A stretch of DNA of 64,000 nucleotides from NCBI GenBank assembly GCA_014381745.1, contig JACNLA010000018.1, forward strand, positions 1 through 64,000. The letters are read 5' to 3'. Of the stretch, positions 38,010-48,572 are shown piece after piece (position 1 is the stretch's first letter; the number at the start of each line of letters is the position of its first letter). The DNA is from Actinomycetota bacterium. Its GTDB lineage: Bacteria; Actinomycetota; Acidimicrobiia; Acidimicrobiales; MedAcidi-G1. The translations under genes and the position numbers were made by a program. A model generated the notes under the pieces. The model ran no database searches and was not told where the DNA came from. It saw only the letters and a program-made list of their open reading frames with translations.

Positions 38010-39362
38010 GTGGATGAGACCAGCTTCGAACGACAGTCGGGCCAGCAGGACTACGTGCTGAGAACCATCGAGGAACGCGGGGTCCGGCTCGTGCGGCTCT
38101 GGTTCACCGATGTGTTGGGTCGACACAAGTCGGTAGCCATCTCACCAGCCGAACTTTCGACCGTGTTCGAGGAGGGTCTGCAGTTCGACGGATCCGCAAT
38201 CGACGGATTCAGCAGGGTTCAAGAGAGCGACGTGCTGGCACGTCCCGATGCCAGCACCTTTGAGTTGCTCCCGTGGGCCTCGCCCGACGAACCGTCCGGC
38301 ACGGTCTTCTGCGACATCACCAACCTGGACGGCTCACCCTTCGAGGGCGACCCTAGACAGGTCCTGCGCCGCAATCTGGAGAGTGCCCACGCCGCCGGCT
38401 TCGAGATGTTCTGTGCACCGGAGATCGAGTTCTTCTACCTGGCCCAAAACACCGGAGAACCGGTTCTGCTCGACCAGGCCTCATACTTCGACCTGACAAC
38501 AACCGACGTCTCGTCAGACCTGCGCAAGCGCACTCTCCACATGCTCGAAGCACTGTCGATCCCAGTCGAGTACTCCTTTCACGAGGACGCCCCCAGCCAG
38601 CATGAGATCGACCTCCAGTACACAGACGCCCTGACAATGGCCGACTCGGTTATGACGCTCCGTCTGGCCGTCAAGAAGATCGCCATGGAAGGTGGTGTCT
38701 ACGCCACGTTCATGCCGAAACCGGTGAACGGAATCCAGGGATCGGGGATGCACACCCACCTGTCGCTGTTCCGCGATGGAACAAACGCCTTCTACGACGG
38801 CGACGATGAACACGGCCTGTCGGCTACCGCCCGGTCGTTCATCGCCGGCCTGTTGCACCACTCCCGGGAGATGACGGCGGTAACCAACCAGTTGGTCAAC
38901 TCCTACAAGCGAATCAACGAGGGCTACGAGGCACCCCGCTACGTGTCGTGGGCCCGCAACAACCGTTCGGCGCTCGTTCGGGTTCCGGTCACCAAGCCGG
39001 GAAAGCCCGACTCGACCCGCGTCGAGTACCGGGCCCTTGATCCGGCATGCAACCCTTATCTGGCGTTCTCGGTTCTCCTGGCGGCTGGGCTCCGCGGTGT
39101 CGAAGAGGGATACGATCTGCCCAAAGAGGCCGCTGTGAGCCTCGACGAGTTGAGCCGCTCCGAACAACGGGACCTCGGGGTGGCGGGCCTTCCAACCAAC
39201 CTCGCCGAGGCGCTTGATGAGATGGAGGAGTCCAAGTTGGTTCGCAATGCCCTCGGTGACCACATCTTCGAATGGTTCCTACGCAACAAGCGCGCCGAGT
39301 GGTCCGACTACGAGCGTCAGGTGACTCCATTCGAGTTGGAGCACTACCTGCCCAACTGGTGA
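38010..39362 (+). CDS. Glutamine synthetase type I, GlnA2-like
   Basis: A 450-residue GSI with LVRLWFTDVLGRHKSVAI, EGLQFDGSAIDGF, CAPEIEFFYL, GSGMHTHLSLF and NNRSALVRVP. The C-terminus, FEWFLRNKRAEWSDYERQVT, is that of the GSI-alpha/GlnA2 group, not the adenylylated GSI-beta group. It may make glutamine or, like some GlnA relatives, gamma-glutamylate another amine. The GTG start at 38010 has no clear Shine-Dalgarno. The regulator gene follows by eight bases. Confidence 0.93.
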   Translation: MDETSFERQSGQQDYVLRTIEERGVRLVRLWFTDVLGRHKSVAISPAELSTVFEEGLQFDGSAIDGFSRVQESDVLARPDASTFELLPWASPDEPSGTVFCDITNLDGSPFEGDPRQVLRRNLESAHAAGFEMFCAPEIEFFYLAQNTGEPVLLDQASYFDLTTTDVSSDLRKRTLHMLEALSIPVEYSFHEDAPSQHEIDLQYTDALTMADSVMTLRLAVKKIAMEGGVYATFMPKPVNGIQGSGMHTHLSLFRDGTNAFYDGDDEHGLSATARSFIAGLLHHSREMTAVTNQLVNSYKRINEGYEAPRYVSWARNNRSALVRVPVTKPGKPDSTRVEYRALDPACNPYLAFSVLLAAGLRGVEEGYDLPKEAAVSLDELSRSEQRDLGVAGLPTNLAEALDEMEESKLVRNALGDHIFEWFLRNKRAEWSDYERQVTPFELEHYLPNW

Positions 39363-39369
39363 CAGCCAG

Positions 39370-40050
39370 ATGAACCCACTTCTTGTCTTTCCGGATCCGC
39401 CACCGCCTGAGCTAACCCAGTGCCTCGACCTCGGAGGCTGGGCATGGAAGGCAATCGACGATCCTGAGCGTGCCGTTTCAGACGAACCCGACGAGGGTTG
39501 GGCCGGAGCGATCGTGTCCGCCGACACGGACCCTGACGGGGCAATGGGGATGTGCCGTCGCCTGCGGAGTGGAGAAATGCCTCTGGAGCCACTGCTGTTG
39601 CTGCTCGGTGGCGCCCAGTTGGCCGACCTTGATTCGCGCTACGACCTGTTCGACGACTTCTGCCTGATGCCCGTTAGGCCCGCCGAGCTTGAAGCCCGCC
39701 TCCAGCACCTCTTCTGGCGTTCCGGTCGGGGTACCCGACCGGAGTTGGTGGAGTACGGGCCGCTAGCCCTGAACCTGGAGACCTATCAGGCCGTTGTCGA
39801 CGGCCAACCACTGGACCTCACCTACATGGAGTACGAGCTACTCAAGTTCCTGGCGTCAAGTCCCGGCAAGGTCTTCACCCGCGAGACCCTGTTGAGCAGG
39901 GTCTGGGGTTACGACTACTACGGAGGAGCACGGACCGTCGATGTCCACGTCCGTCGGCTGAGAGCCAAGTTGGGTGAAAAGCACGCAGGCCTGATCCACA
40001 CGGTCAGGTCTGTCGGCTACCGGTTCGGGCAGTCCCGCTGGGGGATCTGA
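39370..40050 (+). CDS. GlnR-like atypical OmpR-family regulator
   Basis: A 226-residue protein with a receiver-like domain (1-118) and a winged helix (about 125-222). The DNA-binding domain is standard: LDLTYMEYELLKFLASSPG, FTRETLLSRVWGYDYYG, TVDVHVRRLRAKLG, IHTVRSVGYRFG. The receiver lacks the phospho-acceptor: the Asp position is Ala51 in AIVSADTDPDG, and the conserved Lys before Pro is Met100. No kinase is adjacent. Actinobacterial GlnR is a known orphan phosphorylation-independent regulator of nitrogen genes, and location eight bases after glnA supports that role. Confidence 0.8.
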   Translation: MNPLLVFPDPPPPELTQCLDLGGWAWKAIDDPERAVSDEPDEGWAGAIVSADTDPDGAMGMCRRLRSGEMPLEPLLLLLGGAQLADLDSRYDLFDDFCLMPVRPAELEARLQHLFWRSGRGTRPELVEYGPLALNLETYQAVVDGQPLDLTYMEYELLKFLASSPGKVFTRETLLSRVWGYDYYGGARTVDVHVRRLRAKLGEKHAGLIHTVRSVGYRFGQSRWGI

Positions 40051-40302: not shown

Positions 40303-40650
40303 TCAGCCGACGTGGGCCCATGCCTCCACCTCGACGCGCGCGCCGAGCGGAAGGGCCGCTACGCCGAATGCCGAGCGGGCCGGCCTGTGGTCACCAAAGG
40401 CCTCGCAGTAGAGCTCGTTCATGCGTGCGTAGTCGTCCAGGTCAGCGAGAAAGACCATCGTCTTCACCACATCTCCCAGCGACGCTCCCTCAGATTCAAG
40501 CAATGCCCGCATGTTCGCCATCGCCTGGGGCAGCTCTGCCTCGAGACCGCCCTCGACCAGACGGCCCTCAGAGATGCCGATCTGACCAGAAAGGACGAGC
40601 ATGTCGCCAGCACGAACTATCGGTGTGTACGGGGCAGGTGTCGGAGACAT
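40303..40650 (-). CDS. ridA: RidA-family enamine/imine deaminase
   Basis: A 115-residue RidA/YjgF protein. It has LVLSGQIGI, the intersubunit-site Arg92 in RPARSAFGVAALPLGA, and VEVEAWA with Glu108. It hydrolyses reactive 2-aminoacrylate-type intermediates from PLP enzymes. Complete at normal length. Confidence 0.9.
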   Translation of the reverse strand: MSPTPAPYTPIVRAGDMLVLSGQIGISEGRLVEGGLEAELPQAMANMRALLESEGASLGDVVKTMVFLADLDDYARMNELYCEAFGDHRPARSAFGVAALPLGARVEVEAWAHVG

Positions 40651-40734: not shown

Positions 40735-42300
40735 TCAGATTCCGGCCGGCCAGTCAGGTGGGGTCCCTAGATGGATCCATGTAGCGGCGGCAACGGCCGC
40801 GAACACCGCTTCTGATCCGTTGCGGGGCTCTGGATCATTGTCGGGCTCGATGGTTACGTCGATTCGTGGTGTCTCTGTGGCCCTCACGATCCCGAAGGAC
40901 CTGATGGTCAGGTCGGAGACCACGCCGGACGCATCAACGGCAAGAGACTCGGAGGTGACCCAACTCCAGGCCATGTGGGCTGCACCAATGCAGTAGGAGC
41001 GCAGAACCGTGGCGTCCAGAGGATCGCCACATCGAACCGAAACGCTGATCCGGCCGGGCTCCACCTCTGCTTCGGCGACTGCTCCGTCAGGCGACACGAC
41101 CGGACCCGTGTACCCGCGTGCGCCGGCGAGCAACACGACGGCCTCGGCCCAGCCAGCTGCCCGGATGGTGATCGAGGTCGGCGGACCCGCAACATCGACC
41201 TCCTCAACCTTCAAACCAGGTGCCAGCCTGTTGATCGCATCGCTGACCCCAGGGGTTCTGACGACCCGCATGATTCCGGTTCCGTCAGCCATTGCCCCGC
41301 CGGCAACCGGTGGTCTCTTGGGCCCAGTTTGAACGGTGTCCTCCCGGGACATCATCGCCACCACCGTGCGGCCGTGCTCATCGGCCAACCTTCTTGCCGC
41401 ATCGGAAACTGGAGAGTCTGTTTTTGCGCCGAACGCACCGCCGTTGGCGAGGGGGCTTGACGGCTCCCCTCCCGGTTCACACCATGCCGTATCGGTTTCG
41501 AGGTAGGCGGGTTCAACCCAGGCGGTGCGCAGCACCACGTCCCAGTCACCCGGTGGTGCATCCAGCGGCGGTACGGCATCGACGGTCGTGCGCCTCCCCT
41601 GGACCTTGCCGGCGACGCGGCGGGCCTCCTGAATCGTCTCGGCTACAGCCCAACCGCCTGACGCGTCTGGAACCGCCACCAGGGCATCAACCGGTGCAGT
41701 ATCGGCGGCAAAACCGCCCTGGCCCAGGGCGATGGCTCTGGCCACAGCCTGGTGTGAACGACCCTCGATGAACGCCCTCCGGTTGGCCCCCTCGCCGGAA
41801 CATGGCTTCGGAGTCTTCCCATATGCGTCCCACGCCTCGAGCACGGTCTGCCACCCGGTGCAACGGCAGAGGTGTGCATGCAGAGACCTCGCCACACGGT
41901 CGGGGTCGGTCACCCCGTCCGCACGAAGCCCGGCGAACCTCATGATGATCCCCGGCGTACAAAAGCCACACTGGCTGCCACCGGTTCCGGTGAAGGCATC
42001 CGCCCAACGGGACCTCTCGTCGGGATCCAGGCCGTCGAGGGTCGTGATGGAGCGACCCGCCATCCGCCTCACCGGTGTCACACACGAAACTCGCGGCTGC
42101 CCGTCGACGAGGACCGTGCAGCAACCGCACTGTCCCTGCGGGCTACACCCGTCCTTCGGGGAGGTAGCCCCGAGATAGCCCCGCAATGCATCCATAAGGT
42201 TCCCGTCGCTGTCCGGGATCACCACCTCATCACCGTCAACCCAGAAGGTCAGACCGTCGGTTTCCTCCCCGCCGTGTGGCTTGCTCGACCCGTTCATCAT
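40735..42300 (-). CDS. Compact 2Fe-2S / molybdenum-hydroxylase-like fusion
   Basis: A 521-residue protein. Residues 15-165 are the iron-sulfur subunit of xanthine-dehydrogenase/CO-dehydrogenase-type enzymes: GCSPQGQCGCCTVLVDG (Cys52, 58, 60/61, 73) and the all-helical second cluster SQCGFCTPG with CRCTGW (Cys111, 114, 145, 147). The remainder resembles pieces of the Mo-subunit, such as NGGAFGAKTDSPVSDAARRL, MMSREDTVQ, and RSYCIGAAHMAWSWV to TIRSFGIVRATETPRIDV. At about 350 residues it is half the usual Mo-subunit, and most of the cofactor-binding part is missing. No FAD subunit is adjacent. Substrate unknown. Confidence 0.75.
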   Translation of the reverse strand: MMNGSSKPHGGEETDGLTFWVDGDEVVIPDSDGNLMDALRGYLGATSPKDGCSPQGQCGCCTVLVDGQPRVSCVTPVRRMAGRSITTLDGLDPDERSRWADAFTGTGGSQCGFCTPGIIMRFAGLRADGVTDPDRVARSLHAHLCRCTGWQTVLEAWDAYGKTPKPCSGEGANRRAFIEGRSHQAVARAIALGQGGFAADTAPVDALVAVPDASGGWAVAETIQEARRVAGKVQGRRTTVDAVPPLDAPPGDWDVVLRTAWVEPAYLETDTAWCEPGGEPSSPLANGGAFGAKTDSPVSDAARRLADEHGRTVVAMMSREDTVQTGPKRPPVAGGAMADGTGIMRVVRTPGVSDAINRLAPGLKVEEVDVAGPPTSITIRAAGWAEAVVLLAGARGYTGPVVSPDGAVAEAEVEPGRISVSVRCGDPLDATVLRSYCIGAAHMAWSWVTSESLAVDASGVVSDLTIRSFGIVRATETPRIDVTIEPDNDPEPRNGSEAVFAAVAAATWIHLGTPPDWPAGI

Positions 42301-42350: not shown

Positions 42351-43244
42351 ATGACCGTGCCGCAACGACTGCTGAGCCGCCGTCAGGTTCTAACGGGCAT
42401 TCTTGGAGCCTCAGGCGGTCTCGTTCTCATCGCCTGTGGGGCCGAGGACGCGGCTGCTCCAACAGCTACCGCACCGACCGGCGGTCTCTCCCTCGGGGCC
42501 CGGTTCGCAGACGGATTCCAGGCACCCACCGTGATCACTGCCGGAACACCTCAGAGGGCCCCCTACGTGCTCATCGGAAGCGACGGCTGGCCCGCTACAG
42601 ACGTGCCGGACCAGATCCAGTTGACCGTGACAAGTGGCGACCAGGTCGTCTTCGCCGGCCCCGTGGACCGTCACGGCGAACCGAACGCCATCCCCTACTT
42701 TCCGCTTGTCTTTACACCGCCGTCCACGGGCGACTACTCGGTCCGTGGAGCCGGCCTGCCAGGTCGCCACAGGCTCCGGGTCACCGACGCCGCGAAGTTG
42801 GGGCTCATCCAGGTCGGCGACCCGATGAGGCCCGTCGATTCACCGACGCTCGACGACCCACACGGTGTAGACCCCATCTGCACCAGGCCGAACGGCCCGT
42901 GCCCGCTGCACAAGGTGACCGTCGCCGAGGCCATCAACCTCCCGGGTCCTACCGCAATGCTGATCTCGACGCCGCGGTTCTGCCAGACCGACGTCTGTGG
43001 TCCGGCACTCGAGGTGCTGATTGCCGCAGCTGGCGACCTCGACCCCTCATGGTCGGTGATCCATGCCGAGGTCTATGTGGCACCAGAAGACAACGACTTC
43101 ACCCTGACCCCCACCGTGGGCGCCTACGACCTCTCGTTCGAGCCCAGCCTCGTCGTGGCCGATGCCGACGGGATCGTGACGGCCGTGCTGCACTTCACGA
43201 TGGACACGCCCGAGGTGAGCGCCGCTCTCGAATCTGCAACCTGA
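42351..43244 (+). CDS. Lipoprotein with thioredoxin-like CxxxxC motif
   Basis: A 297-residue exported protein starting LLSRRQVLTGILG, a twin-arginine signal, followed by lipobox LIAC. The middle is beta-rich and the C-terminal part contains ISTPRFCQTDVCGPALEVL, the pattern of SCO1/thioredoxin-like folds with Cys-x4-Cys. It may bind copper or do thiol redox work on the outer face of the membrane. Divergent start next to the Mo-hydroxylase-like gene; the two ATGs are 50 bases apart. Confidence 0.7.
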   Translation: MTVPQRLLSRRQVLTGILGASGGLVLIACGAEDAAAPTATAPTGGLSLGARFADGFQAPTVITAGTPQRAPYVLIGSDGWPATDVPDQIQLTVTSGDQVVFAGPVDRHGEPNAIPYFPLVFTPPSTGDYSVRGAGLPGRHRLRVTDAAKLGLIQVGDPMRPVDSPTLDDPHGVDPICTRPNGPCPLHKVTVAEAINLPGPTAMLISTPRFCQTDVCGPALEVLIAAAGDLDPSWSVIHAEVYVAPEDNDFTLTPTVGAYDLSFEPSLVVADADGIVTAVLHFTMDTPEVSAALESAT

Positions 43245-43273: not shown

Positions 43274-43594
43274 CTAGGAGAAGCTCTTCCCGCAGCCGCA
43301 GGTGCTCTGCGCGCTGGGGTTGTCGATGGAGAACCCCGCATCGGTGAGGCCGTCCTTGTAGTCAAGCGTTGCACCCACGAGCAACTCGGCACTTGACGGG
43401 TCAACCACGACCCTCACATCACCAAAGACCGCCTCGACGTCATCGCCGGACGTCTCCGAATCGAAGTACATCTCGTAGCTGTTGCCTGAACAACCTCCGG
43501 GCCGCACGGTGACGCGAAGCACCATCCCGGCCTCTTCCTCGGCGGCGATCAACTCGCCGACCTTGGTGGTTGCAGTGTCAGTAAGCGCAATCAT
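43274..43594 (-). CDS. erpA: A-type iron-sulfur carrier (ErpA/IscA)
   Basis: 106 residues with the three conserved cysteines: Cys35 in RPGGCSGNSY, and Cys99 and Cys101 in STCGCGKSFS. It transfers Fe-S clusters to target proteins. Convergent with the lipoprotein gene and divergent from mrp, which is also an Fe-S factor. Confidence 0.92.
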   Translation of the reverse strand: MIALTDTATTKVGELIAAEEEAGMVLRVTVRPGGCSGNSYEMYFDSETSGDDVEAVFGDVRVVVDPSSAELLVGATLDYKDGLTDAGFSIDNPSAQSTCGCGKSFS

Positions 43595-45526: not shown

Positions 45527-46837
45527 ATGGCCGCTCCTGATGAGAACAGCCCAGACACCTCGACCGCGCCGGTACCCCGACCGCCCTCGGTCGACAGGTT
45601 GGCCCGGGCCATCGCCGACGTGAACCTGCCCCACCCCCTTCTGGTCGATGCCGCACGAACAGCGGTCGCATCGGGCGACCCGGAGACAGCTGAACAGCGG
45701 GCCCGCGATATCGCCGCGGAACAGGCGCGCAGCCTCCTCACCGGGGTGGTGAACGCCACCGGTGTCCTGCTCCACACCAACATGGGACGTTCCCCCTGGA
45801 CCGACCTTCCCGAGGACGCCTCCGACCGCTATTCCAGCCTGGAGTTGGATCTCGACTCGGGTGAGCGGGGCTCCCGCCAGGACAGGGCGCCACGCCTGCT
45901 TGCCCGCGTATGTGGCGCCGAGGCGGCCATGGTCGTGAACAACTGTGCTGCCGCCGTCCTGTTGACGTTGAGTGCCCTTGCCCACGGGAAGGGGGTCGTC
46001 GTCTCACGCGGTGAGCTGGTTGAGATTGGTGGCGGCTTCCGTATCCCCGAGGTGATGGCACAGTCAGGTGCCCACCTGATCGAGGTCGGCACAACCAACC
46101 GAACCCGCCTGGCCGACTTCGAAACCGCTGTCCAAGGTGGAGACATAGCGTTGGCATTGAGCGTGCACCGCTCCAACTACCGGATCACCGGTTTCACCGA
46201 GAGCGTTGCCGCTTCGGCAATGACAGGCCTCGGGGTACCGGTCGTGGCCGACATTGGATCAGGGTTGGTGGACTCGGCCTGCCCATGGCTCACAGATGGT
46301 CCACCTCCGTGGCTTGAAGGTGAACCGGCGGTGCGACAAACCCTCGAGGCAGGGGTCGACCTGGTGACCTTTTCCGGCGACAAGCTTCTGGGTGGCCCAC
46401 AGGCCGGGATCATCGCAGGTAGGGCCGACCTGGTGGCCCAGTGTGCGGCGCATCCACTCGCCAGGGCTCTCCGGCCCGGAAGCCTCATCATGGGCTCTCT
46501 GCAGCAGTTGGCCCTCGCCTACCTGGCCCGCGACGGCCTGACCATTCCGTTCTGGAGAATGGCAACGGTGCCAGTTGACGAGTTGCGGCAGAGGGCGTCG
46601 GCAATCTCGCCGGACCATGCCGCTGACACGATCGCCGTGCCCGGTGGTGGCACGCTTCCCGGCGTGGAGATCCCATCGGCCGGCCTGGTTGTGCAGGGAG
46701 ACCACGTAACCGAGTTGCGAACCGGTACACCACCGGTGATCGCCCGGGTGCACGACGGCTCGACCGTGATAGACCTGCGGACCGTCCACCCCGACGACGA
46801 CGACGTGATCCGTACCGCAGTCGACCGGCTCACGTGA
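45527..46837 (+). CDS. selA: L-seryl-tRNA(Sec) selenium transferase
   Basis: A 436-residue PLP enzyme that converts Ser-tRNA(Sec) to Sec-tRNA(Sec) using selenophosphate. Family motifs: NATGVLLHTNMGR, RLLARVCGAEAAMVVNNCAA in part, GELVEIGGGFRIPEVM, EVGTTNRTRL, VADIGSGL, and the PLP Lys in FSGDKLLGGPQAG. A TATCCT box lies nine bases before the ATG. The selB start is eight bases after the stop, forming a selA-selB operon. SelD, which supplies selenophosphate, is not in the window. Confidence 0.95.
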   Translation: MAAPDENSPDTSTAPVPRPPSVDRLARAIADVNLPHPLLVDAARTAVASGDPETAEQRARDIAAEQARSLLTGVVNATGVLLHTNMGRSPWTDLPEDASDRYSSLELDLDSGERGSRQDRAPRLLARVCGAEAAMVVNNCAAAVLLTLSALAHGKGVVVSRGELVEIGGGFRIPEVMAQSGAHLIEVGTTNRTRLADFETAVQGGDIALALSVHRSNYRITGFTESVAASAMTGLGVPVVADIGSGLVDSACPWLTDGPPPWLEGEPAVRQTLEAGVDLVTFSGDKLLGGPQAGIIAGRADLVAQCAAHPLARALRPGSLIMGSLQQLALAYLARDGLTIPFWRMATVPVDELRQRASAISPDHAADTIAVPGGGTLPGVEIPSAGLVVQGDHVTELRTGTPPVIARVHDGSTVIDLRTVHPDDDDVIRTAVDRLT

Positions 46838-46844
46838 AGAGACA

Positions 46845-48572
46845 ATGCACGTAGTCGCCACGGCCGGGCACGTGGACCACGGCAAGTCCACGCTCGTTCA
46901 GGCGCTGACCGGCACCGACCCCGACAGGTTCTCCGAGGAAAAGGCGAGGGGACTGACAATCGACCTGGGGTTCGCCATGACCACCCTTCCCTCAGGTGTG
47001 ACCCTCTCGCTGGTAGACGTTCCCGGGCACATCCGGTTCATCAAGAACATGCTGGCCGGAGTCGGCGCTGTCGATGCCTGCCTCTTCGTCGTGGCAGCCA
47101 CCGAGGGTTGGAAACCGCAGTCCGAGGAACATCTCCGAATCCTTGAACTGCTCGGCGTGGGTCACGGCGTCGTCGCCCTGACCAAAGTCGGTCCGGCAGA
47201 ACCTGACCTCACTGACCTGGCGCGGCTGGAGATCGAAGAACAGGTGGCAGGTACCTTCCTCGAGGGCGCCCCTGTCATTGCGGTCGACTCCCCTACCGGT
47301 CTGGGCCTGGCCGATCTTGTGTCGGCGATCGACGAGATGCTCGCCTCGACGCCGGCGTCTATTGACCATGACCGGCCACGGCTCTGGATCGACAGGGCCT
47401 TTGCTGCCACCGGAGCCGGGACCGTCGTCACCGGCACGCTCACCGGCGGACATCTGCAGGTCGGAGATGAGCTGGAGTTGAACCCCGGAGGCAGGAAGGT
47501 CCGGGTGCGGAGCCTCCAGAGCCACCACGCCGAGCACGGTGAGCTTCCACCCGGAACACGGTGCGCCGTGAACCTTGTAGGCGTCTCCCACGATGAGGTG
47601 GTCCGGGGTGACGTGTTGACACGACCGGGCCAGTGGCACATGACAACCGTCGTGGACGCCTCGCTACAGGTCCTGGGCCGCCTCGACCACCCTGTCTCAC
47701 GCCGAGGCGCCCACGTCGTCTACCTGGGTGCCGGCGAGCACCCGTGCAGGCTGAGGGTTCTGGGCCCCGACAAGATCGAACCTGCATCGACGGGATCGGT
47801 GCGCCTGTTCCTCCCGCGGCCCCTTCCGCTCCTCCCGGGCGACAGGTTTGTACTGAGGGAGAGTGGCCGATCCGAAACCCTCGGTGGGGGAGAGATCCTT
47901 GACGTCGATCCACGTGAGCGCGCCTCCAGGGCAAGGCCCGACAGGTCGGTCGACAGGGTTATCAGCGAGAGAGGCTGGGTCTCGACCGAAGATCTGCTTC
48001 GTCTGACGGGCACGAGCCGGGAGCCGACCGTGGCCAACTGGGTGGTCGACCCAACCGTCTTGAGCGACACGCTTGAGCGGCTCAGGGAGGCAGTGGACGA
48101 GGCCGGACCGCTGGGACTCGACATTGCCGCCCTCGATGAACACGAGCGGGCTGCCGCCGAGATGCTGTCTGGTGCCGTCCTGGACGGCGGACGGCTGACG
48201 GCAGCGGGTGCAGCAGATCCGCTGGCAGACCATCCCTTCGCCCAACTCCTGGCTGCTTCACCCTTCGCTCCACCCACACCCGATGGGGTCGACAGGGCCG
48301 AACTGCGCGAGATGGTCAGGCGGGGGGTGGTGACCGAACAGGACGGTGTGTTCTTCGCCGCCTCAGCCGTGGATGATGCCGCGATGCTTGCGGCACGGCT
48401 GCTGGTCGAATCACCCGAAGGGTTCACCGTGTCCGCCTTCAGGGAGGCCGCCGGGAACACCCGCAAACACGCAATGCCGCTACTCGCCCGGCTTGATGGA
48501 ACTGGAATCACGCGACGGCGAGGCGATGTTCGGGTTGCCGGACCGCGCCTACCCGTGACCGGCGACGGCTGA
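46845..48572 (+). CDS. selB: Selenocysteine-specific elongation factor
   Basis: A 575-residue EF-Tu-like GTPase with C-terminal winged helices, which delivers Sec-tRNA to UGA codons next to a SECIS hairpin. G1 is GHVDHGKST, switch 1 KARGLTIDLGFA, and G3 DVPGH. G4 reads ALTKVGPAE, so the guanine-specifying Asp of (N/T)KxD is Gly. Domains II-III follow, and the last ~230 residues (from about SERGWVSTEDLLRLTG) form the winged helices. Complete at near-normal length. Confidence 0.94.
   Translation: MHVVATAGHVDHGKSTLVQALTGTDPDRFSEEKARGLTIDLGFAMTTLPSGVTLSLVDVPGHIRFIKNMLAGVGAVDACLFVVAATEGWKPQSEEHLRILELLGVGHGVVALTKVGPAEPDLTDLARLEIEEQVAGTFLEGAPVIAVDSPTGLGLADLVSAIDEMLASTPASIDHDRPRLWIDRAFAATGAGTVVTGTLTGGHLQVGDELELNPGGRKVRVRSLQSHHAEHGELPPGTRCAVNLVGVSHDEVVRGDVLTRPGQWHMTTVVDASLQVLGRLDHPVSRRGAHVVYLGAGEHPCRLRVLGPDKIEPASTGSVRLFLPRPLPLLPGDRFVLRESGRSETLGGGEILDVDPRERASRARPDRSVDRVISERGWVSTEDLLRLTGTSREPTVANWVVDPTVLSDTLERLREAVDEAGPLGLDIAALDEHERAAAEMLSGAVLDGGRLTAAGAADPLADHPFAQLLAASPFAPPTPDGVDRAELREMVRRGVVTEQDGVFFAASAVDDAAMLAARLLVESPEGFTVSAFREAAGNTRKHAMPLLARLDGTGITRRRGDVRVAGPRLPVTGDG

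Follow-up and report, generated by a model that had tools for sequence, protein, structure and literature searches.

What becomes of an enzyme of the xanthine oxidase (XO) family when much of its molybdenum (Mo) subunit is missing? The question is raised by a gene in the window, that is, the whole stretch of DNA analysed here (64,000 nucleotides), in which the ORF at 40735-42300 on the minus strand is a single intact frame of 521 aa (below, the short gene and the short protein). The protein and its two parts are as follows:

40735-42300, minus strand: 521-aa short protein, predicted to be a [2Fe-2S]2 protein of XDH fold free of molybdenum cofactor (Moco); stop codon at 40735-40737
41806-42252, minus strand: double [2Fe-2S] module, residues 17-165, placed by Fer2/Fer2_2 and by cysteine conservation in 100 sequences
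40738-41805, minus strand: pruned Mo-subunit-derived part, residues 166-521, collinear with an 860-aa paralogue and superposing on MOP (the aldehyde oxidoreductase of Desulfovibrio) and on XDH

Every match of the short protein is to the XO family, whether in Pfam, NCBIfam, PDB sequences or structure. Pfam places Fer2 and Fer2_2 (E 4e-15) at its N-terminus, in NCBIfam the top model is TIGR03311 (selenium-dependent xanthine dehydrogenase), matched with its N-terminus over residues 19-161 only, and the PDB sequence matches are the Fe-S modules of XO-family enzymes (best 1rm6_C, E 2.3e-25). About 355 residues follow the Fe-S module, close to the 350 or so given for the Mo part by an earlier, sequence-only reading of this DNA, and here Pfam yields weak, sub-threshold matches to MoCoBD_1 (287-333) and MoCoBD_2 (412-478).

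A simple answer would be that the gene is damaged, by a strain-specific deletion, by decay into a pseudogene or by an assembly artefact; the short length speaks for this and nothing else does. Around 100 distinct short homologues of some 520-570 aa were, however, found across Acidimicrobiia, and these have a similar length and an open frame at about 40-77% identity, which makes damage of any such kind extremely improbable. The survey of relatives that the sequence-only reading had called for found the same short length kept and no full-length Mo-domain in frame. Since the relatives are short too, a deletion in one strain does not describe this gene, and a one-strain deletion or pseudogene is ruled out by the conserved homologues. 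Most genomes of the family encode the protein (59-77% identity over nearly the full length), as do 97 of the 148 sampled genomes of the order and 65 of the 198 sampled genomes of the class. At least 90% conservation in 100 distinct sequences is found at 183 of the 521 positions, in the Fe-S and Mo-derived parts alike.

The search for the distribution of the short protein covered genomes of the phylum Actinomycetota, together with one scan of named records. Within the phylum sample (about 300-400 genomes), every match at E <= 1e-50 lay inside Acidimicrobiia, and the Mo-derived part alone as query found nothing outside this class at E <= 1e-6. The named records with the short protein were mostly MAGs and single cells of Acidimicrobiales/Acidimicrobiia. 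The same scan turned up an Acidimicrobiales-type copy on a contig labelled Terriglobia (Acidobacteriota; L087); this contig is probably mis-binned, since its copy groups with Acidimicrobiales sequences. A tree of 42 proteins, which took in three poorly excised long rows (L165, L167 and L169) on artefact branches, has one branch that parts the short from the long proteins (support 89/97); the sequences from the other order form one group, and the MoaA-less ones form one group inside the short side. The simplest reading of these sequences is a single old origin of the short family, followed by largely vertical inheritance. No account of such a short XO family was found in the open-access literature searched.

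How much of the enzyme is left is indicated by an AlphaFold model of the short protein (pLDDT 92.8, pTM 0.92). The model superposes on MOP and on whole xanthine dehydrogenases over about 477 residues at an rmsd of 2.6-2.9 A; on MOP residues 1-898, in particular, Z is 23.7 for 477 residues at 2.7 A. The profile of the short family is collinear end to end with the 860-aa paralogue (hhalign probability 100). As modelled, the short protein is a pruned whole of the XDH-like fold and not half of a Mo-domain. The sequence-only reading, according to which only N- and C-terminal pieces of the Mo part are left, is at odds with the superposition of the whole model on MOP 1-898 and full XDH, and with the retention of a shortened FRGFG block.

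Two XO-family traits, the pair of [2Fe-2S] domains with eight ligand cysteines and the homologous Mo-subunit fold, are present in the short protein, the latter in pruned form. The ligand cysteines (C52/C58/C61/C73 and C111/C114/C145/C147) are each 99-100% conserved in 100 short sequences. The non-ligands C60 (99%) and C274 (97%) are the ninth and tenth nearly invariant cysteines. The cluster cysteines are indeed all intact, as had been claimed.

The cofactor-binding segments of the XO family are GGAFG, AFRGFG, GQG, GSR and GVGE, and they were placed in the paralogue by aligning it to MOP (1sij). The short protein keeps both GGxFG and the FRGFG arginine, and the remains of these segments lie as follows:

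41422-41442, minus strand: retained GGAFGAK, residues 287-293; in XO-family enzymes this is the first of the cofactor motifs
41143-41163, minus strand: RAAGWAE (R380 to E386), a remnant of FRGFG that aligns to AFRGFGANQ of the paralogue
40741-41031, minus strand: C-terminal MoCoBD_2 remnant, residues 424-520, without the catalytic GVGE

The GGAFGAK of the short family, which aligns with GGTFGYK of MOP via the paralogue, is 98-100% conserved except at position 292 (100 sequences). G288, F290, G291, K293, R380 and E386 are each present in 100 of 100 short sequences, and K328-RPP is invariant. The invariance of GGAFG, R380 and E386 means that some ligand may occupy the old cofactor cleft. The GQG and GSR motifs of MoCoBD_2, present in the paralogue and in MOP, occur in none of the aligned short members, which in the joint alignment lack the block of about 165 residues that carries both motifs in the paralogue. 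The catalytic glutamate of GVGE is absent from the aligned short members as well: the motif is deleted relative to the paralogue, and at the position nearest to it, before P492, E is found in only about 39% of 100 short sequences. Glu1261 of this motif (GVGE / GEP) is the catalytic base of bovine XDH (PMC3624778).

Another possibility, which the sequence-only reading had offered as an alternative, is that the short protein makes up one half of a split Mo hydroxylase and a second polypeptide the other. Full-length XO-family enzymes do exist elsewhere in the genome: a search for a partner Mo-subunit found the fused paralogue of 860 aa (contig C42), in which Ald_Xan_dh_C, MoCoBD_1 and MoCoBD_2 are well above cut-off, but in a separate cluster. 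No partner gene adjoins the short gene, and the model is that of a compact, complete fold. Moreover, the short gene is present without any full-length MoCoBD_1 protein in G050, G056, G058, G066, G107, G112, G117, G118, G149, G120, G276, G280 and G290 (G070, G156 and G193 have one marginal MoCoBD_1 match each, which in G070 and G193 equals the score of the short protein itself). These genomes contradict the proposed second polypeptide and rule out a split hydroxylase with a partner, so that this explanation is very unlikely.

Whether the short protein could still be a molybdenum enzyme, with a reduced or altered cofactor site, is a question on which the motifs speak both ways: the family has kept GGAFGxK, the FRGFG arginine and K328-RPP without variation but has lost the GQG and GSR segments together with the catalytic glutamate. 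Most hosts of the short gene still encode MoaA and make Moco. However, a check of 80 high-quality genomes for MoaA and MoeA found both absent from four genomes with the short gene (G120, G276, G280 and G290, 96-97% complete), two of which (G280 and G290) are also without MoaC. All four belong to family f23, and MoaA and MoeA are also missing from three more f23 genomes, which have no short gene (G069, G155 and G273), so the loss looks lineage-wide in f23. The Fe-S ligand cysteines, R380 and E386 persist in the f23 short proteins read (G120, G280 and G290), which suggests that they are kept for something other than Moco. Genomes without MoaA/MoeA and without a full-length Mo hydroxylase argue against both a Mo cofactor and a complementing Mo-subunit. 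That the short protein no longer needs Moco is well supported, although indirectly, the MoaA/MoeA losses being those of one family-level clade (f23) of draft genomes; a surviving molybdenum enzyme is quite improbable.

If not molybdenum chemistry, what does the short protein serve? Its neighbours in the window are these:

40303-40650, minus strand: RidA (enamine/imine deaminase), directly downstream of the short gene; PF01042, E 5.9e-32
39370-40050, plus strand: GlnR-type regulator, conserved neighbour; Trans_reg_C and a sub-threshold GlnR_1st match
38010-39362, plus strand: glutamine synthetase (GlnA), conserved neighbour; domain match and neighbourhoods
42351-43244, plus strand: divergent lipoprotein-like gene, in many cases separating ErpA from the short gene; without a match in Pfam or NCBIfam
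43274-43594, minus strand: A-type Fe-S carrier (ErpA/IscA-like); PF01521, TIGR00049
43737-44945, plus strand: Mrp/ApbC-type Fe-S carrier ATPase, conserved neighbour; PF10609, PF01883

Among the neighbours read there is no FAD or XdhC-type gene, which bears out the sequence-only reading, and there are no complex I genes; that reading had overlooked the A-type carrier and Mrp within three genes and RidA directly downstream. Of the 128 loci long enough to show it (near-duplicates counted), 114 have an intact-looking RidA gene as the next gene downstream in the same orientation, as a rule no more than about 150 bases away. These include the class-distant G193 and G281 and the MoaA-less G120, G280 and G290; among the members of the other order, RidA does not adjoin the short gene in G260, G251 and G299. 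The downstream gene has both the PF01042 domain and the conserved catalytic arginine, R92, which is found in 104 of 104 distinct linked RidA sequences and on which the hydrolysis of imines depends (PMC4433059). The short gene and ridA are probably co-transcribed. Known partners of RidA genes in clusters are FAD amine oxidases and PLP enzymes producing imines or enamines (PMC4433059); neither "xanthine dehydrogenase" nor "iron-sulfur" appears as a term in the text of that paper.

The A-type carrier, Mrp, GlnR and GlnA are met repeatedly in this block throughout the class; in 35 of 59 loci, the lipoprotein-like gene is close to the short gene as well. A tight run is seen in G120, G280 and G290, where ErpA comes first, followed by the short gene and RidA, and successive genes overlap or lie about 6-10 bases apart. 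In several other lineages, ErpA has a SufR-like HTH gene (below the NCBIfam cut-off) beside it. Genes for the selenocysteine machinery, SelA and SelB, belong to the same block and occupy 45527-48572 of the window; of 59 loci, 26 have SelA and 24 have SelB in the vicinity of the short gene.

One explanation of this neighbourhood is Fe-S homeostasis, with the short protein as a [2Fe-2S] reservoir, sensor or delivery protein that acts together with the A-type carrier and Mrp, and with RidA as a bystander. The conserved proximity of the two carriers is consistent with it, as are ErpA, which in G120, G280 and G290 directly precedes the short gene in the same orientation, and the SufR-like gene in the block of other genomes. 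However, in the window and in many relatives the divergent gene parts ErpA from the short gene, whereas RidA stays adjacent, and the large conserved body of the protein is left unexplained. The clusters of MOP-type proteins are, moreover, buried and stable, which again argues against such a role. Fe-S homeostasis is therefore the weaker of the two readings of the neighbourhood, below the one that involves RidA, and is unlikely.

The explanation that we consider probable is that the short protein is a Moco-free [2Fe-2S]2 protein of XO fold, of early Acidimicrobiia origin, with a redox role in a unit with RidA. Its ancestor would have been an XO-family enzyme in which [2Fe-2S]2 and Mo-subunit were fused, as in the 860-aa paralogue or the MOP of Desulfovibrio, and would have given rise to a Moco-free protein early in the diversification of Acidimicrobiia. 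Internal deletions have taken out the segments with GQG and GSR as well as the catalytic glutamate, whereas strong selection has preserved the double [2Fe-2S] module and, with it, a compact body resembling XDH. The resulting two-cluster protein most likely transfers electrons or has another redox function, its body docking a partner or a small ligand, and one step would make, meet or respond to an imine or enamine that RidA hydrolyses; the neighbouring A-type carrier and Mrp plausibly supply the clusters. The sequence-only reading had allowed for an electron-transfer protein with a non-catalytic Mo-domain, and this fits the evidence, electron transfer itself being the conjectural part of it.

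Known systems offer several comparisons. MOP (1sij, 1dgj) and the 860-aa paralogue have the same domain order, the same two [2Fe-2S] domains, GGxFG, the FRGFG arginine and the fold; the short protein differs from them in having no GQG, GSR or GVGE segments and in being kept in genomes without Moco genes, and it is about 340 residues shorter than the paralogue. CoxS, HcrC and PaoA, the stand-alone [2Fe-2S] subunits of the XO family, share its N-terminal module but bind separate catalytic Mo, and often FAD, subunits, whereas in the short protein the module continues into a vestigial Mo-body, and the short gene has no catalytic Mo or FAD partner gene beside it. NuoG (Nqo3/NDUFS1), the best-known case of Moco loss, which has been called unique in the Mo/W-bisPGD family as a member that lost Moco (PMC5123574), is likewise an Fe-S protein with a Mo-enzyme-derived domain lacking Moco. 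This comparison is one of workings only: NuoG comes from the unrelated Mo-bisPGD superfamily and is a subunit of a membrane complex (complex I), whereas the short gene is beside ridA. By this analogy, the short family looks like the same kind of event as the loss of Moco by NuoG, in the unrelated XO family; if so, a second Mo-enzyme fold has also been kept purely as an Fe-S protein. The fuller proposal, in which a Mo-free XO descendant parallel to NuoG is a new redox partner or enzyme of RidA imine detoxification, is tentative, with the odds somewhat against it. The firm linkage to ridA, glnA/glnR and the Fe-S carriers suggests that imine detoxification has a redox component in a large group of environmental bacteria, and the short gene and ridA together offer a two-gene system that can be tested directly. 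Annotations may call genes of this kind xanthine dehydrogenase subunits, though hydroxylation by their products is unlikely.

The cluster that holds the paralogue (L064, C42:30001-50000 of the same genome, G000) also encodes several amidohydrolases, a nitrilase-like protein, an FAD-subunit-like protein and other XO-family genes, and probably serves the catabolism of purines or other N-heterocycles. Within it (L064:4497-7418) is a fused XO-family protein of 973 aa whose ferredoxin-like N-terminal part is without the usual cluster cysteines, GSTSGETG, QSGYSVG and GILDRETAY replacing the CxxxxxCxxC, QCGFC and LCRCTGY motifs. Its Mo part retains GGGFGAK, AYRGYG and a C-terminal glutamate motif, which, from these motifs, is seemingly the reverse loss: the clusters lost and the Mo part kept.
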